Program-made: the position numbers and the translations under genes
Part shown: positions 38,546 to 49,511 of the stretch, in pieces
Position numbering within the stretch: the stretch's first letter is position 1
Layout: every line of letters starts with the position of its first letter
Notes under the pieces: generated by a model
Databases searched by the model: none
Told to the model about the DNA's origin: nothing
The model's input: only the letters and a program-made list of their open reading frames with translations
Assembly: GCF_902832845.1 (NCBI RefSeq)
Contig: NZ_CADFDB010000001.1
Location: forward strand, 868,001 to 932,000
Direction: 5' to 3'
Origin: Burkholderia metallica
Lineage (GTDB): Bacteria; Pseudomonadota; Gammaproteobacteria; Burkholderiales; Burkholderiaceae
DNA length: 64,000 bases

Positions 38546-39568
38546 TCAATGCGGCGTCACCAGACGCGGATCGATATACGCGTCGACGTCCTGCGACTGC
38601 TTGTACACGCCGTTGCGCACGTTGAACGCATTCGCGTTGCGCGTCGAGCCGTAGATCGAATCGAGCCCGTCGCCCTTGCGGAACGCGCGCTTCGCGGCAG
38701 CCTCGTCGAGCAGGTGCGTGCCTTTCAGCAGCGGCAGGTATTGTTCCGGCGCGAGGCCGACGCGCGCCGACATGATCCGCACCGCGTCCGCCTGCGTCTT
38801 CGGGTCTCCGATGTACGCGACGCAGCGATACCAGACCTTGATTACCTTGGCCCAGTCGGCGCGGCGCGCGGCGAGGCTGGCGGGCGCGACCGTGATCGCG
38901 TCGTAGATCAGCCCCGGCGCATCCGCCGACGTGAAGATCGCGCGTGCGCCCGGCGCGCGCTTCAGCGCCTCGCCCGCATTCGGCTGCCAGGCCGCCACCG
39001 CGGCGATGTCGGTCGACGAACCGAGCACCTGCGGCAGTTCGTTGGTTTTCGCGTTCACGAGCGTCACGTCGCCGTCCTTCAGCCCGTGCTTCTGCAGCGC
39101 GGTTTCGAGCAGCAGATGATCGACGAGGCCGAGTTCGACGCCGACCTTCTTGCCCTTCAGCGCCTCGACGCTGCGCAGCGGCGGCTTCGCGACGATCATG
39201 TCGTTGCCGGCGGAGTAGTCGGTGAGCAGGATCATCACGTTCTTCGCGCCTGCCGCGCCCGTCACGAGCGCGTCGCCGTTCGTCGCCGCGACGGCGTCGA
39301 GCTTGCCCGCGGAAAACGCGTCGAGCGATGCCGAGTAATCGAACCATTCGAAATCGACGTCGACGCCGGCCTCCTTGAACCAGCCCTTGTCGAGCGCGAC
39401 CTGGAACGCGACCCAGCCGGGCCAGTCGCTGTAGCCGATCTTGAGCGGCGCTGCCGCGTGCGCGGCGGGTGTCGTGAGCAGCGTGGCGGCCGTGGCGGCC
39501 GCTCCCAATGCGTGGCGGACGGAACGGCGGGACAGCAGGCGGCGCAGCGCCGGGGCGGGACGGGTCAT
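38546..39568 (-). CDS. Substrate-binding protein of the guanidine-locus ABC transporter
   Basis: 340 residues, NMT1/SsuA-like periplasmic binding protein. Signal peptide about 1-38 (RRSVRHALGAAATAATLLTTPAAHA), then LKIGYSDWPGWVAFQVALDKGWFKEAGVDVDFEWF, DAVAATNGDAL and GKKVGVELGLVDHLL. It is the type linked to urea carboxylase/UAAP gene clusters. Its leader carries a guanidine-I riboswitch and sigma-54 promoter, so guanidine (or a close derivative) is the probable ligand. ATG 39568 has CTGGAG upstream; an in-frame ATG 44 codons earlier (39700), right after the aptamer, is discussed separately. Its permease and ATPase partners are on the opposite strand at 47583-49511. Confidence 0.88.
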   Translation of the reverse strand: MTRPAPALRRLLSRRSVRHALGAAATAATLLTTPAAHAAAPLKIGYSDWPGWVAFQVALDKGWFKEAGVDVDFEWFDYSASLDAFSAGKLDAVAATNGDALVTGAAGAKNVMILLTDYSAGNDMIVAKPPLRSVEALKGKKVGVELGLVDHLLLETALQKHGLKDGDVTLVNAKTNELPQVLGSSTDIAAVAAWQPNAGEALKRAPGARAIFTSADAPGLIYDAITVAPASLAARRADWAKVIKVWYRCVAYIGDPKTQADAVRIMSARVGLAPEQYLPLLKGTHLLDEAAAKRAFRKGDGLDSIYGSTRNANAFNVRNGVYKQSQDVDAYIDPRLVTPH

Positions 39569-39704
39569 CGTTTTCTCCAGGAGACCGGGATCGGGATCGT
39601 CGATACGGACCATGCCAGTGCACGGTCCGGCCGCGTGGCCGGTTCCTGCGGATGCGGAACGAACGAAGCGGCCACGGAGAGGCGCGACGGCCGTTGCCAT
39701 CGCC

Positions 39705-39832
39705 AATCTCCCGGGCTTTTGTCCCGCCGTGTAGCGTGTGCGCGTCCGGTCTCGCGACCGGACGAATCCGCGCCGGGCTGCTCTCGGACCAGACGTTCGA
39801 TGAACCGGAACCCTAGCACCCCTAAGATGCGA
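39705..39832 (-). ncRNA. Guanidine-I (ykkC) riboswitch, leftward
   Basis: Read on the minus strand it contains the three conserved blocks of the guanidine-I aptamer in order: CTAGGGTTCCGG (39816-39805), GGTCCGAGAGC (39790-39780) and CGGCGGGACAAAAGCCCGG plus GAGA (ending 39707). These match the ykkC consensus blocks. The aptamer binds guanidinium and turns expression on. It lies 137 bases before the binding-protein ATG. After it come a CCGGCC/GGCCGG hairpin and no obvious U-run terminator, so control may be on translation. Confidence 0.93.
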
Positions 39833-39860
39833 CGCCGCCGCACCTCTCGGCGTCATGTCG

Positions 39861-39876
39861 AGCGAGAAGCGTGCCA
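39861..39876 (-). promoter_or_regulatory. Sigma-54 promoter, leftward transcript
   Basis: TGGCACGCTTCTCGCT on the minus strand fits the sigma-54 -24/-12 consensus TGGCACG-N4-TTGC with one mismatch and the required GG-N10-GC spacing. The predicted start (39850) gives a transcript beginning CCGAGAGGTGCG, 18 bases before the riboswitch. Confidence 0.75.
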
Positions 39877-40089
39877 ACGGCACGCTGCGGGCGGCCTCAG
39901 CGGCGGCGCGATGCGCGCTGCAGTTCGATGAAGCGGGCGGAGAAGAGCGCGCTCAGCACGCGCCGGAGCAGGTCGAGCTTGTTCATGAGGTGGGCCGTAG
40001 CGAGTGAAGGTGCATGCATCCAGCAATGCGCATGCCATCGACGATCGCGCGGTGCGGGCGGACGCGACGCGCACTGCGTCGGTGCGGGG

Positions 40090-40106
40090 GCGCGTTTGCA
40101 TGGTGC
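40090..40106. promoter_or_regulatory. Possible NtrC enhancer site
   Basis: GCGCGTTTGCATGGTGC has a perfect right half (ATGGTGC) of the NtrC dyad GCACY-N5-RTGGTGC and a partial left half. It is about 134 bases before the rightward start site and about 250 before the leftward one, suitable for an enhancer serving both sigma-54 promoters. Confidence 0.4.
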
Positions 40107-40205
40107 GCGGCACGCCCGCCGCGAGGGCAGCCACCCGCATCCGGTGCAGTGCCTGTCGATGCGCGCATGCCGGAAAGCCGCGTGGCGCGGCGATTCCGCC
40201 ACCGC

Positions 40206-40221
40206 TGGCACGCAACTCGCT
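40206..40221 (+). promoter_or_regulatory. Sigma-54 promoter, rightward transcript
   Basis: TGGCACGCAACTCGCT matches the sigma-54 consensus with one mismatch and correct GG-N10-GC spacing. It differs from the leftward promoter at only two spacer bases. The predicted start 40232 gives CCGAGAGGTGCG as the first transcribed bases, identical to the leftward transcript. Confidence 0.75.
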
Positions 40222-40259
40222 TATTCGATGCCCGAGAGGTGCGAAGCAATTTGCATCAT

Positions 40260-40395
40260 CTTCAGGATCGCTAGGGTTCCGGTCGTGCGGCGTTCGCGCC
40301 GCGCGATGGCTGGTCCGAGAGCAATCCGGTCTTGTCCTTCTCCTCGAGTCGAGGAAACGGCGAGGCTCCACGGAGGGATAAAAGCCCGGGAGGTC
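40260..40395 (+). ncRNA. Guanidine-I (ykkC) riboswitch, rightward
   Basis: It contains the conserved aptamer blocks CTAGGGTTCCGG (40271-40282), GGTCCGAGAGC (40312-40322) and CGGAGGGATAAAAGCCCGG plus GAGG (40371-40393), in the order and spacing of the ykkC class I guanidine riboswitch. It precedes the carboxyguanidine deiminase/guanidine carboxylase operon, whose first ATG is at 40452. No terminator hairpin with a U run is visible downstream, so translational control is likely. Confidence 0.95.
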
Positions 40396-40398
40396 GCG

Positions 40399-40512
40399 AT
40401 GTCGTTCGGTCGCCCTCTCACGCCTTTCGTCCAACCGACCACGGAGCCGCCATGTCGCCGAGCCCCCAAGCCGTCCTTGCCCCGCCGCCACACGTCGTGT
40501 GGGAAACGCTGA
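40399..40512 (+). other. Possible 37-codon leader ORF at the riboswitch exit
   Basis: The 3' end of the aptamer, GGGAGG, stands five bases before an ATG (40399) that opens a 37-codon frame ending inside the next gene in another phase. The peptide (starts MSFGRPLTPFV) looks like no family. Translation of it would depend on the aptamer fold, so it may be part of the expression platform rather than a protein gene. Confidence 0.35.
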
Positions 40513-41207
40513 TTCCCGCCGGAACCCATTGGTCCGGCATCCTGCGCCGCGGTCTCGCGCTGCGCGTCGTCGATGTCGACGGCGGCGCCAACCTGTCCGC
40601 CGTGTTTCATCGCCAGGAAGACCCACTCGAACGCTACAACATGGCCGACACGCTGAAGGCGCAGCACACCGCGCATCTCACGCGCGGCCATGCGCTGTAC
40701 ACCGACATGGGGCGCGTGATCGCGTCGATCACGGCCGACACGCTCGGCTGGCACGACCCGCTCGGCGGCGTCGGCGATGCGCGGCTCTTCGCGCACAAGT
40801 ACGGCACCACGTCGTACCAGGCCGATCGCAACGCGATGATCCGCAACGGCCGCGACAGCCTCGTGCTCGAACTGGCGAAGTACGGGCTGTCGGCGCGCGA
40901 CCTCGTCGCGAACGTCAATTTCTTCAGCAAGCTCGACACGCGCGAAGACGGCGCGCTCGACTTCGTCACCGGACATTCGCCGGCCGGCAGCACCGTCGAC
41001 CTGCGCTTTGAAATGAACACGCTGGCGGCATTTTCGACGGCGCCGCATCCGCTCGATCCGCACCCGGACTACGCGCCGAAGGCCGTGAAGCTGATCGCGT
41101 ACCGCGCGTATCCGGCGGACGGCGCGGCACCGGAAGACGACCCGTGCCGCCGCGCGTGCGCCGAGAACGTGCGCGGCTTCGCCAACACCGATCGCCTGTT
41201 TGCGTAA
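40452..41207 (+). CDS. Urea-amidolyase-associated protein UAAP1; carboxyguanidine deiminase subunit
   Basis: A 251-residue DUF1989 (UAAP1) protein. Seen: [66 protein letters not shown]. Paired DUF1989 proteins next to a 'urea' carboxylase have been shown in other bacteria to form the carboxyguanidine deiminase CgdAB, which converts carboxyguanidine to allophanate and ammonia. The riboswitch immediately upstream supports that role here rather than a urea role. ATG 40452 has GGAG six bases before. It lies 11 bases before its partner subunit. The gene is first in a seven-gene operon. Confidence 0.9.
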
Positions 41208-41218
41208 GGAGCCGAGCC

Positions 41219-41875
41219 ATGCCGATCATCGAAAGCCGCCTCGACCCGCGCGATGCGATCCACGACACGATTCTGAACGCGGGCGAACCGTGGCTGCACG
41301 ACCTGAAGCGCGGGCAGGTGTTCCGCATCCTCGACCTCGAAGGGAATCAGGCCGTCGACACGCTGTTCTACCGGTCCGACGACCCCGAGGAGCGTTACAG
41401 CGCGCAGGACACGATCCGCGCGCAGCGCAACCTGTACCTGAGCGCGGGCAGCGTGCTGCTGTCGAGCCGGGGCAACCCGATGGCGACGATCGTCGCCGAT
41501 ACCTGCGGCCGTCACGACACGCTCGGCGGCGCGTGCGCGGCCGAGAGCAACACCGTGCGCTATGCGCTCGACAAGCGGCACATGCACAACTGCCGCGACA
41601 GCTTCCTCAACGCGATCGCGCACTGCACGTGCGGCGCGGGCGCGCGGCTCACCAAGCGCGACCTCGTCGGCAACGTCAACTTCTTCATGAACGTGCCGGT
41701 CACGCCGCTCGGCGGGCTGACCTTCGAGGACGGCATTTCCGCACCGGGCAAGTACGTCGAGATGCGCACGGAGATGGACGTCACGGTGCTGATCTCGAAC
41801 TGCCCGCAGCTGAACAACCCGTGCAACGGGTACAACCCGACGCCGGTGCGCCTCACGATCTGGGAGGGCGAATGA
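41219..41875 (+). CDS. Urea-amidolyase-associated protein UAAP2; carboxyguanidine deiminase subunit
   Basis: A 218-residue DUF1989 (UAAP2) protein, paralogous to the preceding gene product: [79 protein letters not shown]. Conserved His, Asp and Cys residues in RHDTLGGAC and HNCRDSF could bind a metal or the substrate. It should act with UAAP1 on carboxyguanidine. AAGGAG precedes ATG 41219 by 8 bases. Its stop codon overlaps the start of a 45-residue ORF (ATGA). Confidence 0.9.
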
Positions 41876-42009
41876 ACACGTTCCACGCTCGCTTGCTTTG
41901 CACGGAGCTGGCGTACGCGCTCAAGCGCGACGCCGGACCGACGACACGTTCGCGGCCCTCCACGGGGGCGATTGCCTGCACCGGGGCAGCCCGTCGGGAG
42001 GCAGCATGA
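41872..42009 (+). CDS. 45-residue ORF coupled to both neighbours
   Basis: The ATG (41872) overlaps the UAAP2 stop (ATGA) with GGGAGG five bases upstream, and the TGA (42007-42009) overlaps the carboxylase ATG (ATGA). The frame exactly fills the gap between two genes. The product is basic (starts [20 protein letters not shown]-terminal half rich in Ser, Thr, Arg, Ala) with two cysteines and no known motif. It could be a small accessory protein or a frame kept open to carry ribosomes to the carboxylase start by termination-reinitiation. Confidence 0.5.
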
Positions 42010-45000
42010 GATTCGACAAAGTCCTCGTCGCGAACCGCGGCGAAATCGCCTGCCGCGTGATCCGCACGCTGAAGCGGCTCGGGATCGCGTCGGTCGCGAT
42101 CTACTCCGACGCCGACCGCGACGCGCGCCATGTGGCGCTCGCCGACGAAGCCGTGCGCGTCGGCCCCGCGCCGGCGGCCGACAGCTACCTGAACGTCGCG
42201 GCGATTCTCGCCGCCGCGCGCGAGACGGGCGCGCAAGCCGTGCACCCCGGCTACGGCTTCCTGTCCGAGCACGCCGGTTTCGCCGACGCGTGCGAAGCCG
42301 CGGGCCTGCGCTTCATCGGGCCGCGCGGCGACCAGATGCGCGCGTTCGGGCTCAAGCACACCGCGCGCGAACTCGCCGCCGCGCAGGGCGTCGCGCTGCT
42401 GCCGGGTACGGGCCTGCTCGACGATGCGCGGACGGCACGCGCCGAAGCCGATGCGATCGGCTATCCGGTGATGCTGAAAAGCACCGCGGGCGGCGGCGGG
42501 ATCGGCATGTCCCTGTGCCGCGACGCCGCGCAGCTCGAAGCGGCGTTCGATTCCGTCGTGCGGCTCGGCACAGCGAATTTCGCGCATGCGGGCGTGTATC
42601 TCGAGAAATTCGTCGAGCACGCGCGCCACATCGAAGTGCAGATCTTCGGCGACGGCCGCGGCGGTGCGATCGCGCTCGGCGAACGCGATTGCTCGGTCCA
42701 GCGCCGCAACCAGAAAGTGATCGAGGAAACCCCCGCGCCGGGCCTGACCGACGAAGAGCGCGCCGCGCTGCACGCGAGCGCGGTGCGGCTCGCCCGCGCG
42801 GTGCGCTATGCGTCGGCCGGCACGGTCGAATTCGTGTTCGACGCCACGACGCGCCAGTTCTATTTCCTCGAGGTGAACACGCGGCTGCAGGTCGAGCATT
42901 GCGTGACCGAAGCAGTGACGGGCATCGATCTCGTGGAATGGATGATCCTGCAGGCGGAGGGCGATCTGCCGCCGCTCGACACGCTCGCCGTTGCACCGCG
43001 CGGCGCGAGCATCCAGGTGCGGATCTATGCCGAGGACCCGCACAAGCAGTTCCTGCCGAGCGCGGGGCTGCTGACGCACGTCGCGTTTCCGGACGACGTG
43101 CGCGTCGACGGATGGATCGACGCGGGCACCGAGATCAGCGCGTACTACGATCCGCTGCTCGCGAAGCTGATCGTGCATGGCGATACGCGTCGCGACGCGC
43201 TGGCCGCGCTGCGGCGCGCACTGGCGCGCACCGAGCTGTACGGCATCGAGACCAACCTCGACTATCTGCGCGCGATTGCCGGGTCGGACACGTTCGCGCG
43301 CGGCGCATCGACGACGGCCTTCCTGTCGCGCTTCGCGTTCGCGCCGCACACGATCGACGTACTCGACGGCGGCGTGCAGACCACCGTGCAGCAGGCGCCG
43401 GGGCGCGTCGGCTACTGGAACGTCGGCGTGCCGCCGTCCGGGCCGATGGACGATCGCGCGTTCGCGCTCGCGAACGCGCTGCTCGGCAATGCGCGCGACG
43501 CGGCCGGGCTGGAGTTCACGATGGTCGGCGCGACGCTGCGCTTCAACGCCGAGACGCTCTTCGTGCTCGGCGGCGCACCGCTCGCGGCATCGCTCGACGG
43601 CGCACCGGCACCGTTCTGGCAGGTGCTGCGCGCGGGGCCCGGCGCGGTGCTGAAGCTGGGCGGCGTGACGGGCGCCGGCGTGCGTGCGTGCCTGGCCGTG
43701 AAAGGCGGGCTGCAGGTGCCCGACTATCTCGGCAGCAAGGCGACCTTCACGCTCGGCCAGTTCGGCGGCCATGCCGGGCGTGCGCTGCGCAAGGGCGACG
43801 TGCTGCATCTGGACGCGCAAGCCGGGCGCGGCGAACCGGGCGCAGCGCTGGCCGCGGCCGACATTCCCGCTCTCACGCACGCGTGGACCCTCGGCGTGCT
43901 CGACGGCCCGCACGGTGCGCCGGATTTCTTCACGCCGGACGACATCGCGATGCTGTACCGCACGCAGTGGACGGTCCATTACAACTCGAGCCGCACCGGT
44001 ATCCGGCTGATCGGCCCGAAGCCGCAATGGGCGCGCCCGGACGGCGGCGAGGCCGGCCTGCATCCGTCGAACATCCACGACAACGCGTATGCGATCGGCG
44101 CGGTCGATTTCACCGGCGACATGCCGGTGATCCTGGGCCCGGACGGCCCGAGCCTCGGCGGCTTCGTGTGTCCGGTGACGGTCGTGCAGGACGAGTTGTG
44201 GAAGCTCGGGCAATTGCGGCCCGGCGATACCGTGCAGTTCGTGCGCGCCCGCGTGTCGGCCGGGCCGGCCACCGGCGCGGTTGCGCGCGCGGCACCGGGC
44301 AGCGCGCCGGACGCGCCGGACGATTGCGTGCTGCATCGCGACCCGTCGGCCGGCGGCGGCATCGGCGTGGTCTACCGGCGCTCGGGCGACCGGAACGTGC
44401 TGGTGGAATACGGCCCGCTCGTGCTCGACCTGAACCTGCGTTTTCGCGTGCATGCGCTGATGTGCTGGCTCGATGCGCACCGTCTGCCCGGCATGCTCGA
44501 CCTGACGCCGGGCATTCGTTCGCTCCAGGTGCAGTTCGATGCGCGGACGCTGCCGCTCGACACCCTGCTCGCGCATCTGCAGGCAGCCGAACGCGTATTG
44601 CCGGACGTCGCCGATATGCGCGTGCCGAACCGCATCGTGCATCTGCCGCTGTCGTGGGACGATCCGTCGACGCGTGTCGCGATCGAGCGCTACATGCAGT
44701 CGGTACGGCCCGATGCGCCGTGGTGCCCGAGCAATATCGAGTTCATCCGGCGGATCAACGGCCTGGCCGGCATCGACGACGTGAAGCGCATCGTGTTCGA
44801 CGCCCGCTATCTGGTGATGGGGCTCGGCGACGTGTACCTCGGTGCGCCCGTCGCGACGCCGATCGATCCGCGCCACCGGCTCGTCACCACGAAGTACAAC
44901 CCCGCGCGCACGTGGACGCCGGAGAACGCGGTCGGCATCGGCGGCGCGTATCTGTGCGTGTACGGGATGGAGGGGCCCGGCGGGTACCAGTTCGTCGGCC

Positions 45001-45605
45001 GCACCGTCCAGATGTGGAATCGTCACCGGACCACGCGGGAGTTCGAAGCCGGCAAGCCGTGGCTGCTGCGCTTTTTCGACGAGATTCGCTTCTACGAGGT
45101 CAGCGAGGCGGAACTGGCGGACCTGCGCGCGGATTTCGTCGCGGGGCGCGCCGGGCTGAAGATCGAGGAATCGGTGTTCGATCTCGGCGAATACAACCGT
45201 TTCCTGCGCGACGAGGCGGATTCGATCGCCGCATTCAAGGCGTCGCAGCAGGCGGCTTTCGACGCGGAGCGCGAACGGTGGCGGGCGGCCGGGCATGCCG
45301 AATACGTCGGCGACGCGGCACAAGGCGATGCGGAAGCCGCGCGGGAGGCCGGCGTGCTCGCCGATACGCAGCGCGCGATTGCCGCGGACGTGTCGGGCAG
45401 CGTGTGGAAGGTGCTGGTCGAAGCCGGCGAGCGCGTGACCGAGGGGCAGGTCGTCGCGATCGTCGAGTCGATGAAGATGGAGGTCGCGGTGACGGCGACG
45501 GAAGACGGCACGATCGAGACGATCGATTGCGCGCCGGGCGCGGCGGTGGTCGCCGGCCAGCGGCTGATGGTGATGCAGGCGGGCGCCGCCGAGGAGGTCG
45601 CATGA
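42006..45605 (+). CDS. uca: Biotin-dependent guanidine (urea) carboxylase
   Basis: 1199 residues with the whole urea-carboxylase layout: biotin carboxylase domain (about 1-450; FDKVLVANRGEIACRVIRTL, STAGGGGIGM ATP loop, FLEVNTRLQVEHCVTE), KipA- and KipI-like central domains (about 460-1030) that form the carboxyltransferase, and the C-terminal biotin carrier with VESMKMEVAV, biotin on Lys1157. It uses ATP and bicarbonate to carboxylate its substrate. Classical annotation is urea carboxylase; the guanidine-I riboswitch and CgdAB-type partners point to guanidine as the main substrate. GGGAGG precedes ATG 42006. It overlaps the next gene by ATGA. Confidence 0.93.
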   Translation: MRFDKVLVANRGEIACRVIRTLKRLGIASVAIYSDADRDARHVALADEAVRVGPAPAADSYLNVAAILAAARETGAQAVHPGYGFLSEHAGFADACEAAGLRFIGPRGDQMRAFGLKHTARELAAAQGVALLPGTGLLDDARTARAEADAIGYPVMLKSTAGGGGIGMSLCRDAAQLEAAFDSVVRLGTANFAHAGVYLEKFVEHARHIEVQIFGDGRGGAIALGERDCSVQRRNQKVIEETPAPGLTDEERAALHASAVRLARAVRYASAGTVEFVFDATTRQFYFLEVNTRLQVEHCVTEAVTGIDLVEWMILQAEGDLPPLDTLAVAPRGASIQVRIYAEDPHKQFLPSAGLLTHVAFPDDVRVDGWIDAGTEISAYYDPLLAKLIVHGDTRRDALAALRRALARTELYGIETNLDYLRAIAGSDTFARGASTTAFLSRFAFAPHTIDVLDGGVQTTVQQAPGRVGYWNVGVPPSGPMDDRAFALANALLGNARDAAGLEFTMVGATLRFNAETLFVLGGAPLAASLDGAPAPFWQVLRAGPGAVLKLGGVTGAGVRACLAVKGGLQVPDYLGSKATFTLGQFGGHAGRALRKGDVLHLDAQAGRGEPGAALAAADIPALTHAWTLGVLDGPHGAPDFFTPDDIAMLYRTQWTVHYNSSRTGIRLIGPKPQWARPDGGEAGLHPSNIHDNAYAIGAVDFTGDMPVILGPDGPSLGGFVCPVTVVQDELWKLGQLRPGDTVQFVRARVSAGPATGAVARAAPGSAPDAPDDCVLHRDPSAGGGIGVVYRRSGDRNVLVEYGPLVLDLNLRFRVHALMCWLDAHRLPGMLDLTPGIRSLQVQFDARTLPLDTLLAHLQAAERVLPDVADMRVPNRIVHLPLSWDDPSTRVAIERYMQSVRPDAPWCPSNIEFIRRINGLAGIDDVKRIVFDARYLVMGLGDVYLGAPVATPIDPRHRLVTTKYNPARTWTPENAVGIGGAYLCVYGMEGPGGYQFVGRTVQMWNRHRTTREFEAGKPWLLRFFDEIRFYEVSEAELADLRADFVAGRAGLKIEESVFDLGEYNRFLRDEADSIAAFKASQQAAFDAERERWRAAGHAEYVGDAAQGDAEAAREAGVLADTQRAIAADVSGSVWKVLVEAGERVTEGQVVAIVESMKMEVAVTATEDGTIETIDCAPGAAVVAGQRLMVMQAGAAEEVA

Positions 45606-47518
45606 GCACGACGGAACGTTCGATCGTGCCCGGTGTGCGCTCGATCGCCGCGCTGCGGGCGCGCTATGCGGCGGGCGACCTGACGCCGCATGCGCTCGTC
45701 GACGCGATCGCCGCGCATTTTGCCGCGGGCGATCCGCATCATGCGTGGATCAGGCCGCTGACGCAGGCCGAGATGACGGCCCATGCCAACGCGCTGGCCG
45801 GGCGCGACCCCGCGTCGTTGCCGCTGTACGGCGTGCCGTTCGCGATCAAGGACAACATCGACCTCGCCGGCATCCCGACGACGGCAGCGTGCCCGGCCTA
45901 CGCGTACACGCCGGCACGCAGCGCGCCCGTCGTCGAACGGCTGATCGCGGCCGGCGCGATCCCGATCGGCAAGACCAACCTCGACCAGTTCGCGACCGGG
46001 TTGTCGGGCCAGCGCTCGCCTTATGGCGCGTGCCGCAATGCGCTCGATCCGCGCCAGGCGTCGGGCGGTTCGAGCTCCGGATCGGCGGTGGCCGTGGCGC
46101 TCGGTGTCGCGTCGTTTTCCCTGGGCACCGACACGGCCGGTTCCGGGCGCGTGCCGGCTGCGTTCCACGGGCTCGTCGGGCTCAAGCCTACCAAGGGCGT
46201 GTTGAGCACGCTCGGCGTCGTGCCGGCCTGCCGGTCGCTCGATTGCGTGTCGGTGTTCGCGCATTCGGCGGCCGACGCGCGCGCGGTGTTCGCCGCCGCG
46301 CACGGCGTGACCGACGGCGATCCGTACGGGCGCGCATGGCAGCCGCTGCTGGGCGCGGACGGCCTTCGCGCGCAACCGGCGCGACCGTTCGACCAGTTGC
46401 GCTTCGGCACGCCGCGCGTCGATCAGCTGCAATTCTTCGGCGACGAATCGTATGGCGCGGCATGGCGCGCCGCGCTCGCGCGCCTGCGCACAACCGGCGC
46501 GCGGATCGTCGAGATCGATTTCAGCCCGTTCCTGGCCGCCGCGCGGCTGCTTTACGAAGGCCCCTGGGTTGCCGAACGGCTCGCCGCGATCGGTGCGTTC
46601 GCCGCGCGGGAGCCCGACGCGTTGCACCCGGTGATCCGCGAGATCGTCGGCGGCGCGTCGCGCTTCAGCGCGGCCGATGCGTTCGCCGCGTTCGACACGC
46701 TCGCGACGCTGCGTGTCGAGGCCGGCCGTGCTTGGGACGGACTGGACGCGATCGTCATGCCGACGTCGCCGACGACGGCGACCGTCGACGAACTCGAAGC
46801 CGACCCGATCGGCGTCAATTCGCGTTTCGGTTACTACACGAACTTCGTCAACCTGCTCGACCTGTCGGCGATCGCGGTGCCCGCCGGCCGCTGCGAAACC
46901 GGGCGGCATGTGGGGTTGCCGTTCGGCATCACGTTCGTCGGGCGTGCGCACGACGACGCGCGGCTGCTCGATCTTGCGCAGGCGTGGTGCGACGCGGGCG
47001 AACGCGACAGCGGCGAGGAGGGCGGCTTGCGGGCGGAAGTCGCAGGCGACGCGGGTGCAACGACGGCACCGGCGCTCGCCGCGTCATCCGGCGTCGTGCG
47101 CGTGGCGGTCGTCGGCGCGCATCTGCAAGGCGAACCGTTGAACTGGCAGCTCACGCAGCGAGGCGCGCGTTTCGTCGCCGCGACGACGACGGCGAGCGCC
47201 TATCGTCTCTACGCGCTCGCCGCGGCGGCATCCGGCGGCGTCGCCAAGCCGGGCCTCGTGCGTGTGCCGGACGGCGGCGCATCGATCGCGGTCGAGATCT
47301 GGGAGATGCCGGTGGACGCATACGGCAGCTTCGTCGCGGGCATTGCCGACCCGCTCGGCATCGGCACGCTGACGCTCGCGGACGGCGCTCGCGTGCAGGG
47401 TTTCCTGTGCGAAAGCGCGGCGCTCGACGGCGCGCGGGACATCACGCACTTCGGCGGCTGGCGTGCGTACCGCGCGAGCGCCGCGCGTGACGAGCGAGCC
47501 GCACGCGCATCGCAATGA
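45602..47518 (+). CDS. atzF: Allophanate hydrolase
   Basis: 638 residues. The amidase-signature domain (about 10-465) has the catalytic triad Lys83 (AIKDN), cis-Ser157 (GGSSSGSAVA) and nucleophile Ser181 (TDTAGSGRVPAA). A C-terminal AtzF-type domain (about 500-615) carries EIWEMPVDAYGSFVAGI, which completes hydrolysis of allophanate to ammonia and CO2. It is the last enzymatic step of the guanidine route; the product of the carboxylase plus deiminase is its substrate. It starts inside the carboxylase stop codon (ATGA), so the two are made together. Confidence 0.95.
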   Translation: MSTTERSIVPGVRSIAALRARYAAGDLTPHALVDAIAAHFAAGDPHHAWIRPLTQAEMTAHANALAGRDPASLPLYGVPFAIKDNIDLAGIPTTAACPAYAYTPARSAPVVERLIAAGAIPIGKTNLDQFATGLSGQRSPYGACRNALDPRQASGGSSSGSAVAVALGVASFSLGTDTAGSGRVPAAFHGLVGLKPTKGVLSTLGVVPACRSLDCVSVFAHSAADARAVFAAAHGVTDGDPYGRAWQPLLGADGLRAQPARPFDQLRFGTPRVDQLQFFGDESYGAAWRAALARLRTTGARIVEIDFSPFLAAARLLYEGPWVAERLAAIGAFAAREPDALHPVIREIVGGASRFSAADAFAAFDTLATLRVEAGRAWDGLDAIVMPTSPTTATVDELEADPIGVNSRFGYYTNFVNLLDLSAIAVPAGRCETGRHVGLPFGITFVGRAHDDARLLDLAQAWCDAGERDSGEEGGLRAEVAGDAGATTAPALAASSGVVRVAVVGAHLQGEPLNWQLTQRGARFVAATTTASAYRLYALAAAASGGVAKPGLVRVPDGGASIAVEIWEMPVDAYGSFVAGIADPLGIGTLTLADGARVQGFLCESAALDGARDITHFGGWRAYRASAARDERAARASQ

Positions 47519-47582: not shown

Positions 47583-48557
47583 ATGCCAACGACCCGCAAC
47601 ACGACCGAATGGCTTGCCGTGCGCCGCGAGCTGACGACCCGCGGCAAATGGACGCTCGGCGTGGCGTCCTTCCTGCTGCCGTTCGCCGTCTGGTGCCTGA
47701 TCAGTTACGTGCCGTTCATCTGGCATCCGCAAATGCGCATCACGAACCCGGGCAGCGTCGACTATTTCCAGACCGGCATGCAGATCGACCGCGACGTGTT
47801 CGACGACGAACTCGCCCATGCGCGTGCGACGCACGCGGCCGTGCCCGAAGGCGTGCGTGCGAACCCGGTTTACCTGCCCGCGCCGCACCAGGTGCTGCGC
47901 GCGTTCTACACCGCGTTCACGACCGCGCCGGCATCGCGCGACGGCGTCTGGCTGCACGAGAGCCTGTGGCACAGCATCCGGATCATCTTCTGGGGCTTCG
48001 TGATCTCGTCCGCGATCGGCGTGCCGCTCGGCATCGTGTGCGGCACCTTCAGCGTGCTCGCGCGGCTGCAGGAGCCGTTCCTGGAGTTCTTCCGCTACCT
48101 GCCCGCACCGGCGTTCGGCGCGCTGATGGTCGCGATCCTCGGCATCTACGATGCGCCGAAGGTCGCGATCATCGTGATCGGCACGCTGTTCCAGCAGGTG
48201 CTGATCGTCGCGAACACGACGCGCAAGCTCGAATACGGGCTGTTCGAGGCCGCGATGACGCTCGGCACGAAGAAGCTGAAGCTGCTCACGCACGTCGTGA
48301 TCCCCGGCGTGCTGCCGGACCTGTATCGCGACCAGCGCATCCTGCTCGGCTGGGCGTGGACCTACCTGATCGTCGCCGAACTCGTCGGCACGAGCTCGGG
48401 CATCACGTGGTACATCAGCCAGCAGGCGCGCTACCAGCATTTCGACAACGTGTATGCGGCGATCCTGATGATCGGGATCATCGGCCTCGGCACCGACATC
48501 GTGCTCGGGCTGCTCGGCCGCCGGCTGTTTCCGTGGGACCGCACGCTCAAAGCGTGA
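47583..48557 (+). CDS. ABC transporter permease of the guanidine locus
   Basis: 324 residues, SsuC/TauC-like inner-membrane permease. There is one N-terminal helix (WTLGVASFLLPFAVWCLISYV), a periplasmic segment of about 85 residues that is longer than usual, and then five helices with the coupling motif KLEYGLFEAAMTLGTKKLKLLTHVVIPGVLP (EAA loop). It pairs with the ATPase 46 bases downstream and the binding protein encoded across the riboswitch region at 38546-39568. ATG 47583 has GGAG upstream. Confidence 0.92.
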   Translation: MPTTRNTTEWLAVRRELTTRGKWTLGVASFLLPFAVWCLISYVPFIWHPQMRITNPGSVDYFQTGMQIDRDVFDDELAHARATHAAVPEGVRANPVYLPAPHQVLRAFYTAFTTAPASRDGVWLHESLWHSIRIIFWGFVISSAIGVPLGIVCGTFSVLARLQEPFLEFFRYLPAPAFGALMVAILGIYDAPKVAIIVIGTLFQQVLIVANTTRKLEYGLFEAAMTLGTKKLKLLTHVVIPGVLPDLYRDQRILLGWAWTYLIVAELVGTSSGITWYISQQARYQHFDNVYAAILMIGIIGLGTDIVLGLLGRRLFPWDRTLKA

Positions 48558-48602: not shown

Positions 48603-49511
48603 ATGCAGAACCCGCAAGCCGTTCCCGATTACCTGATGCAGTCCGACGCGGTGCGCGAGCGCTTCGCGCGCATGAAAACCCGCGACGTGATCCTCGACGT
48701 GCGTCATGTCGGCAAGCGTTTCGCGACACCGCAGGGCGAGTGCGTCGCACTCGATGACATCAGTTTCCGTACGTACCGGCGCGAATTCGTGTGCGTGATC
48801 GGCCCGTCCGGTTGCGGCAAGTCGACGCTGATCCGCATCCTCGCGGGCCTCGACGCGCAGACGAGCGGCGAGGTGCTGCTCGACGGCAAGCCGGTCCAGG
48901 GGCCGGGCGCCGATCGCGGGATGGTGTTCCAGGGCTATACGCTGTTTCCGTGGCTCACCGTGAAGAAGAACGTGATGTTCGGCCTGCGGATGAACGGCAG
49001 CAGCAGCGGCCAGGCCGAGCGCGAAGCGCTGCAGTGGCTCGATCTCGTCGGGCTGACGCGGTTCGCGGATGTCTATCCGCACCAGTTGTCGGGCGGGATG
49101 AAGCAGCGCGTGGCGATTGCCCGCGCGCTCGCGAACCGCCCGCGCATCCTGCTGATGGACGAGCCGTTCGGCGCACTCGACGCGCAGACGCGCGCGCGGA
49201 TGCAGACGCACCTGCTCGACATCTGGCGCAACATCGACGTGACGATCCTGTTCATCACGCACGATCTCGACGAGGCGATCTTTCTGGCGGACCGGATTCT
49301 CGTGCTGAAGGCGAACCCGGGCGCGGTGCAGGAACTGATCGAAGTGCCCGTGCCACGGCCGCGCGACTATGCGCAGGTCAATACGCCCGAGTTCATCGCG
49401 ACGAAGGCGCGGCTCGAGGCGCTGATCCATCCGAAGGAGGCGGTGGCGCTGGACGACGGTGTGAGGCCGCACATGATCCGCATGACGGACGTGTCGGACA
49501 ACGTCGAATGA
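48603..49511 (+). CDS. ABC transporter ATP-binding protein of the guanidine locus
   Basis: 302 residues of the SsuB/TauB/NrtD type. Walker [14 protein letters not shown]-loop [12 protein letters not shown], signature [19 protein letters not shown], Walker [13 protein letters not shown] and switch [12 protein letters not shown]. An N-terminal extension of about 40 residues precedes the ATPase core. It powers import through the permease just upstream and closes the operon. ATG 48603 has AGAGG seven bases before; the longer frame has no ribosome site. Confidence 0.94.

Follow-up and report, generated by a model that had tools for sequence, protein, structure and literature searches.

Divergent Guanidine-I riboswitches behind predicted sigma-54 promoters, with a conserved microprotein reading frame between them, in a probable guanidine assimilation locus of Burkholderia metallica

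The window analyzed here is a 64-kb stretch of the Burkholderia metallica genome (contig NZ_CADFDB010000001.1, positions 868,001 to 932,000; coordinates below are counted from its first base). It contains a control region in which two Guanidine-I riboswitches face outward, each behind a predicted sigma-54 promoter, towards genes that probably serve guanidine assimilation. The genome is 7.55 Mb in size, and the host is a soil bacterium, a Burkholderia of cepacia-complex type. We consider it very probable that the region provides bidirectional control of nitrogen assimilation from guanidine by a serial AND gate, in which NtrC and sigma-54 act first and a Guanidine-I riboswitch second, and that it includes a riboswitch-free promoter for a microprotein. 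The parts of this model that were observed are the riboswitch homology, the promoter matches with their fixed spacing and conservation, a coding signature and the diagnostic residues of a carboxylase; the NtrC dependence of both arms is carried over by analogy from published results for Burkholderia cenocepacia (PMC5491218).

From these elements we infer start sites, NtrC binding, a guanidine response, termination and microprotein translation that would work together as follows. Under nitrogen shortage, sigma-54 RNA polymerase would be activated at the divergent promoters by NtrC bound in the space between them, and each riboswitch transcript would open with a conserved 5' hairpin, followed by the Guanidine-I aptamer. 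If guanidine is absent, the 3' segment of the aptamer (AAAAGCCCGGGAG) would pair with sequence downstream, forming a terminator-like hairpin at which transcription stops; if guanidine is present, the aptamer would retain this segment and transcription would continue. One arm would then lead to a periplasmic binding protein. A third sigma-54 promoter would supply a conserved 29-residue microprotein that responds to nitrogen starvation alone.

The aptamers were called with cmscan against Rfam RF00442 (gathering score 63). That of the catabolic arm lies at 40260-40394 on the plus strand (73.9 bits), and that of the substrate-binding-protein arm at 39706-39827 on the minus strand (73.4 bits). An earlier note on this DNA had proposed a guanidine-I riboswitch on both strands and asked for an RF00442 search of each, and the match found on either strand bears the proposal out. 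These are the sole gathering-level Rfam matches in the window and the sole RF00442 matches at E <= 0.001 in the whole genome. Across 65 genomes of the genus, 32 have two RF00442 matches each and the other 33 have none. Divergent Guanidine-I pairs are also found outside the family and in a Herbaspirillum metagenome-assembled genome (loci L083, L086, L091, L094, L124, L132 and L177).

The sigma-54 promoter consensus places GG-N10-GC within TGGCAYR-N4-TTGCW. Motif matches precede both aptamers, namely TGGCACGCAACTCGCT at 40206-40221 in the catabolic arm (plus strand; predicted transcription start, +1, at 40232) and TGGCACGCTTCTCGCT at 39861-39876 in the substrate-binding-protein arm (minus strand; predicted +1 at 39850). 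Both are of the TGGCACG-N4-TCGCT type with exact GG-N10-GC spacing, and the distance from the first base of the promoter to the aptamer block CTAGGGTTCCG is 65 nt in the catabolic arm and 60 nt in the other. Comparisons within the genus used 31 Burkholderia genomes with the locus (30 fetched, plus our own), and the promoter is present in every arm of all 31, at a constant 65 and 60 nt while the flanking sequence drifts. The TGGCACG-N4-TCGC promoter with exact GG-N10-GC that the earlier note saw before each riboswitch is thereby corroborated. Genome-wide there are 10 matches to the pattern TGGCAYGNNNNTYGCT (3 to its reversed control); because three of the ten fall in this locus, the promoter matches are unlikely to be due to chance. 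With TTGC at -12 the pattern has zero matches in the window, both riboswitch promoters being of the TCGC form. By sequence, then, both arms carry a predicted sigma-54 promoter in which GG and GC are exact and TCGC stands for TTGC. The sigma-54 site of berA in B. cenocepacia (TGGCACGTAAATCGCT) is likewise of the TCGC type, and was proved necessary by mutation and deletion (PMC5552954). Two rpoN-type genes (PF04552) are present in our genome (G000 C4:136305 and C2:200190). A 16-mer identical to the validated berA site also occurs there, at G000 C1:1163108-1163123.

The pairing of promoter and riboswitch was surveyed in 241 distinct Guanidine-I upstream regions from Pseudomonadota, in which a site matching at least 10 of 12 informative positions, with GG and GC exact, was sought within 120 nt upstream. 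Consensus and threshold were chosen after inspection of sequences from the genus and its relatives. Guanidine-I hits were partly fetched, 31 of the 32 genus genomes with hits were taken in (G008 was left out), and hits without a recognisable CTAGGG/GGYCCGAGAG pair or with less than 120 nt upstream were dropped. A site was present in 223 of the 241 regions, related species not being independent in this count: 62/62 Burkholderia arms, 52/52 regions from other genera of the family, 62/74 from other families of the order, 42/45 from other orders of the class and 5/8 from other Pseudomonadota. The same threshold was reached by 2/241 reverse complements, by 5 windows taken 300-420 nt upstream and by a mean of 7.45 in 20 order-1 random resamples, and at 11 of 12 the observed count was 210 against 0 (reverse complement), 1.1 (resamples) and 2 (far upstream). 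That the matches are a generic trait of GC-rich upstream DNA is therefore rejected at 10 or 11 of 12, but not at 9. Coupling of a predicted sigma-54 promoter to a Guanidine-I RNA is thus the rule in the sampled Pseudomonadota, beyond this locus, and since the distance from promoter to aptamer varies from 31 to 104 nt across the surveyed groups, the site is not just a piece of the riboswitch motif.

Family f16 accounts for 11 of the 18 survey misses. Promoter absence as a mark of efflux operons was not borne out, the first open reading frame (ORF) in f16 being mostly amino-acid-permease-like; this type was assigned from the start of the sequence, with Pfam confirming it for L082 and for one arm of L094, while the other arm of L094 encodes a biotin-carboxylase-type protein (Pfam). 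The promoterless f16 loci (L082, L092, L094, L098, L101, L107, L108, L136, L305 and L308) mostly have no ATP-binding cassette (ABC) binding protein next to the RNA.

For the nitrogen signal, RNA sequencing of B. cenocepacia H111 under nitrogen limitation has been reported (PMC5491218). In an ntrC mutant, I35_7283 and I35_7285 gave zero reads, and I35_7286 (urea carboxylase) and I35_7282 (cyclic-nucleotide phosphodiesterase) changed by log2 -6.0 and -4.7, respectively. That report names I35_7283 the periplasmic protein of a urea carboxylase-related ABC transporter and I35_7285 a urea carboxylase-related aminomethyltransferase, and files I35_7283-7286 as urea genes; the word guanidine is absent from its text. 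It also gives 95% of the top 150 NtrC-regulated genes as sigma-54 regulated, a figure not stated gene by gene. Synteny suggests that I35_7282-7286 correspond to this locus. The locus of B. cenocepacia NCTC13227 (L146) runs from the carboxylase through UAAP2, UAAP1, riboswitch with promoter and promoter with riboswitch to the binding protein, with a calcineurin-like phosphoesterase (PF00149) next after the binding protein, and that genome has one urea-carboxylase-family gene above the cut-off.

An NtrC-like dyad, GCACTGCGTCGGTGC (GCAC-N7-GTGC), lies between the divergent promoters at 40071-40085, with its centre 154 bp from the predicted right start and 67 bp from that of the third promoter described below, upstream of both. 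A second NtrC-like site, GCGTTTGCATGGTGC (40092-40106), is degenerate and weak, with partly conserved columns, and is 21 bp from the first, centre to centre. GCAC-N7-GTGC follows the NtrC consensus, and GCACTGCGTCGGTGC as an NtrC enhancer site is suggestive only.

The genes on either side point to guanidine. Leftward is the gene for an NMT1-type ABC substrate-binding protein (38546-39568, minus strand; PF09084, PF13379, with a TIGR03427 match below its cut-off), which, among the matches listed, places the closest named locus in Burkholderia lata R-18110 (98% identity). Rightward, on the plus strand, are the genes for UAAP1 (40452-41207) and UAAP2 (41219-41875), DUF1989 proteins that match PF09347 and TIGR03425/TIGR03424 above the cut-offs and are carboxyguanidine deiminase subunits by family, followed by those for a probable guanidine carboxylase, publicly named urea carboxylase (42006-45605), and, by profile matches, an allophanate hydrolase (45605-47518), an ABC transporter permease (47583-48557) and an ABC transporter ATPase (48603-49511). 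The importer is divided between two divergent units, since the binding protein is encoded leftward and the permease and ATPase rightward. CgdA and CgdB are recognized as paired DUF1989 proteins in a guanidine operon, and by family assignment UAAP1 and UAAP2 are such a pair. Guanidine carboxylase has been reported to need Asp at the position of K. lactis residue 1584, and Asp at 1330 to separate it from urea carboxylase (PMC11410670). When the window carboxylase was aligned to K. lactis urea amidolyase (5i8i, chain numbering as printed), D942 aligned to D1584 and D701 to position 1330, which is Asn in 5i8i, so that the window carboxylase has, by alignment, both of the residues given in PMC11410670. 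Because of the two Guanidine-I RNAs and both carboxylase residues, guanidine is the likelier substrate, despite the public urea annotation. The earlier note had also held that the locus responds to nitrogen limitation and to guanidine in both directions. This proposal fits the sequence evidence and is supported, on the nitrogen side by the published NtrC dependence of the syntenic H111 genes (PMC5491218), and on the guanidine side, where the response itself is predicted, by the covariance-model matches, the gene content of the catabolic arm and the two Asp residues of the carboxylase.

On both arms, pairing is possible between the aptamer 3' segment AAAAGCCCGGGAG and the bases that closely follow it. 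The predicted terminator-like hairpin of the catabolic arm (40384-40423, plus strand), whose 5' strand overlaps this segment, consists of GGGAGG/CCUCUC with GCGA/UCGC and is followed by a weak U tract (CCUUUCGU). That of the other arm (39671-39716, minus strand) also overlaps the segment, pairs GGGAG/CUCUC-type strands with GCGAUGGC/GCCGUCGC, and has a degenerate U tract (CGCUUCGUUCG). Predicted energies of the 60- and 70-nt stretches are -17.0 and -28.6 kcal/mol. Across the 30 genus loci extracted the right hairpin hardly varies, and T runs follow it in L008 (seven T), L010 and L012, and follow the left hairpin in L003 (six T). The consensus of a longer right-hand alignment and some single folds favoured other pairings, which reach into coding sequence. 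Taken as models, the folds suggest a terminator that competes with the aptamer.

The predicted transcripts also begin with hairpins, at 40234-40262 in the catabolic arm (plus strand, GAGAGGUGCG..., beginning at +3) and at 39824-39846 in the other (minus strand, paired from +5). Pairing starts at +3 in 31 of the 62 genus leaders and at +5 in the other 31, and every one of them has a z score below -1.5 against shuffles; outside the genus the effect is weaker, the fraction below -1.5 being 0.56 for the family (52 leaders), 0.69 for the order (61) and 0.30 for the class (37). Leaders of the GAGAGG type, of which 48 are distinct, all have the first base of GAG between +2 and +5, in 31 of them at +3. 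Position 7 of this motif is paired in 48/48 (U-A 26, A-U 12, C-G 6, G-C 4), and position 10 shows five pair types and is unpaired in 2/48; the partners come from each leader's own predicted fold, which biases the counts towards pairing. In these predicted folds the stem varies with pairing preserved, and conservation starts at the predicted +1. Protection of the 5' end by the hairpin would be a guess. The hairpin was rejected as a further known riboswitch: apart from the two Guanidine-I hits, a permissive search of 39560-40470 against Rfam turned up nothing but six matches that fell far short of their cut-offs. In L128, L129 and five non-Gammaproteobacterial loci the promoter is only 31-38 nt before the aptamer block, and their predicted transcripts begin at or near the aptamer, without the leader hairpin.

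A third predicted sigma-54 promoter, TGGCATGCGCATTGCT (40022-40037, minus strand; predicted +1 at 40011), was found with the genome-wide TGGCAYGNNNNTYGCT pattern and has a counterpart in 31/31 genus loci. Beginning about 25 nt after this +1 is an unannotated ORF of 29 aa, MNKLDLLRRVLSALFSARFIELQRASRRR (39897-39986, minus strand). No riboswitch lies between the two, so the microprotein should answer to nitrogen alone; the transcript could extend into the left riboswitch. The ORF is read from the same ATG in 30/31 genus loci (L003 differs), and its coding signature is a pN/pS of 0.25 in frame versus 1.66 and 2.08 in the shifted frames (23 codons, 30 sequences). Relatives occur in Paraburkholderia, Trinickia and others; RFIELQ is invariant in 14 chosen aligned microproteins, and others have RFMELQ, RFVELQ, RFIELK or sequences further removed. 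All 47 microprotein loci have, no more than 120 nt upstream, a promoter-like site that matches at least 10 of 12 positions, versus 0/47 in the reverse-complement control. This set holds loci with a start codon found, two start-less rows and three with E above 0.1 having been dropped, and a few of its loci share one genome.

A microprotein profile run over 249 genomes of the family gave 22 matches below 1e-5, with six weaker ones (5e-4 to 0.01) left out of the count. The microprotein is present in 18/18 sampled genus genomes with the riboswitch pair and in 0/13 without it, and also in four other genomes, where a comparison of coordinates places it within about 450 bases of a Guanidine-I RNA. 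A relative's sequence had no NCBIfam match, the window ORF had only a sub-threshold Pfam hit (14.1 bits), and no gene is listed at the ORF in the PLSDB tables of two relatives, tables that are incomplete by design. Paraburkholderia of the tropica/bannensis type (for example L180, L186, L193 and L199) have a single riboswitch and a single operon that ends with the importer genes, and keep the microprotein in divergent orientation; none was found in the similar loci L181 and L198. This order suggests that the divergent unit already contained the microprotein when the binding protein and the second riboswitch were added to it. Many Paraburkholderia (most of L158-L173, not L170) have an insert of about 3 kb between microprotein and second riboswitch. 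In L172 (6919-8919, minus strand) the insert carries genes for a 2OG-Fe(II) dioxygenase (PF14226, PF03171) and for a xylose-isomerase-like TIM barrel protein (PF01261), with a possible relationship to the genes for methylguanidine demethylase in PMC12508155.

More tentatively, we see a possibility, somewhat short of an even chance, that NtrC/sigma-54 with Guanidine-I is general in ABC-importer guanidine assimilation of Pseudomonadota and that these microproteins are a new family, independent of guanidine and induced by nitrogen starvation. They might then prepare or adjust the uptake or breakdown of guanidine ahead of its arrival, in a divergent unit that persists even with a single riboswitch.

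Several findings weigh against the proposed gate. The expression evidence all comes from B. cenocepacia H111. The H111 genes were transcribed in the nitrogen-limited wild type of a study with guanidine unmentioned in its text (PMC5491218), which would therefore imply leakage or internal guanidine. Exact GCAC-N7-GTGC half sites are present in only 23/31 genus loci, and this pattern occurs 43 times in the genome compared with 30 for its reversed control. Lowering the threshold to 9 of 12 leaves the survey count at 223 but lifts the reverse-complement control to 28 and the far-upstream control to 46 of 241, mostly through the GC-rich genus Burkholderia, so little can be read into a looser match. 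All 10 f16 genomes with hits keep rpoN, yet the promoter is present at 0/11 of their Guanidine-I RNAs; sigma-54 is therefore not obligatory for this riboswitch, and a missing sigma-54 is rejected as the cause of promoterless RNAs in f16. Among 25 genomes tested, rpoN is absent from G1244 only, whose riboswitch is also promoterless. The f16 RNAs, the TCGC in place of the textbook TTGC at -12, and start sites that are only predicted would suit a scheme in which both arms are served by a sigma-70 promoter or one of another type, the resemblance to sigma-54 sites is accidental, and only guanidine matters. This is highly improbable in our view, given the sites in 223/241 regions against 2/241 in the control, the 60 and 65 nt spacings that hold while sequence drifts, leader conservation that sets in at the predicted start, the NtrC dependence of the syntenic genes (PMC5491218) and the functional TCGC site of B. 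cenocepacia (PMC5552954). We give equally little credence to urea as the substrate, the assignment of the public annotation and PMC5491218. The NCBIfam urea carboxylase model TIGR02712 does match at 1825 bits, and the NCBIfam names of UAAP1/UAAP2 and the sub-cut-off TIGR03427 match of the binding protein agree with it, but the locus has two Guanidine-I riboswitches, its carboxylase has Asp at both positions of PMC11410670, compared with Asn at the first of them in K. lactis urea amidolyase, and PMC5491218 lists a separate urease and urea importer for H111.

In the leaders, the adverse finding is the poor U tracts of the window (CCUUUCGU; CGCUUCGUUCG), with which Rho-dependent or translational control would be compatible. 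That the riboswitches act through translation or Rho instead of intrinsic termination is somewhat unlikely; the weak U tracts after both hairpins, the GC-rich genome and the 57 and 137 nt between aptamer ends and start codons would favour it, but the right hairpin, the 5' strand of which belongs to the aptamer, hardly changes over the 30 loci extracted, T runs directly follow the hairpin in L008, L010, L012 and the left arm of L003, and PMC11410670 describes the class as allowing transcription only with guanidine. Competition between terminator and aptamer is thus the reading we retain. For the microprotein, there is no clear ribosome-binding site before the ORF, and it was not found in L154, L156, L177 and L203, loci with a divergent pair. 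We think it unlikely that the 29 codons are untranslated and conserved as leader RNA or as a DNA element. The pyrimidine-rich sequence ahead of the ATG, where a ribosome-binding site is not clear, and the comparison of just 23 codons in related species speak for this, but the in-frame pN/pS of 0.25 against 1.66 and 2.08 in 30 sequences, the amino-acid motif kept in relatives with different flanking residues, and the promoter-like site that precedes the ORF by a similar distance in 47/47 loci argue for a translated product.

In the Klebsiella nas operon, an NtrC/sigma-54 promoter is followed by leader attenuation that NasR relieves with nitrate. As in that system, general nitrogen shortage would be read here at the promoter and the specific substrate at the leader, but the leader sensor is a riboswitch, doubled and bidirectional, and not an antiterminator protein. 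The DUF1989 family presumably corresponds to COG3665. Predicted sigma-54 regulons include COG3665 (PMC12316311), and the word guanidine is absent from the text of that paper. Guanidine-I (ykkC subtype 1) operons for guanidine assimilation have been described in, for example, Vreelandella boliviensis and enterobacteria (PMC12508155, PMC12186494), and there, as here, a Guanidine-I RNA precedes the genes for an ABC importer, carboxyguanidine deiminase, guanidine carboxylase and allophanate hydrolase. The V. boliviensis operon has one Guanidine-I and an internal Guanidine-II RNA (PMC12508155/PMC12186494), whereas here two outward-facing Guanidine-I RNAs each stand behind a predicted sigma-54 promoter, with the microprotein unit between them. 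The NtrC/sigma-54 regulon of H111 includes syntenic genes of both arms, but filed under urea use (PMC5491218). In Herbaspirillum seropedicae, two ykkC leaders upstream of HSERO_RS22365 and HSERO_RS22370 resemble the present pair in preceding neighbouring genes, but are merely listed (PMC7011215); the terms RpoN and NtrC are absent from that text.

Guanidine-I operons, NtrC control of these genes and a sigma-54 prediction for COG3665 are thus separately in print. No paper joining Guanidine-I, NtrC and sigma-54 was found in the literature searched, most subscription papers being outside that search, and what appears to be new is the combination, its unexpected generality and the microprotein. 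The earlier note had thought the arrangement undescribed, and this holds for the combination in the literature searched. It does not hold for sigma-54 with Guanidine-I, which is common (223/241), nor for two copies, since two ykkC RNAs before neighbouring genes were already tabulated for H. seropedicae (PMC7011215). It had also overlooked the third sigma-54 promoter, the microprotein, the 5' hairpins and the terminator-like hairpins. If the proposed gate is correct, the guanidine riboswitches of Pseudomonadota would acquire a physiological place, guanidine being a nitrogen source used only when better nitrogen is lacking, and the locus would exemplify a general promoter-level signal and a specific RNA-level signal in series. 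Published urea genes would be recast as likely guanidine genes, and an unannotated microprotein would be linked to the guanidine pathway.

One further short ORF, at 41873-42009 of the window, overlaps the UAAP2 stop and spans the gap before the carboxylase gene. Small ORFs are found at a similar place in L062, L063 and L070, with a weak microprotein-like match (E 0.12 to 0.37).
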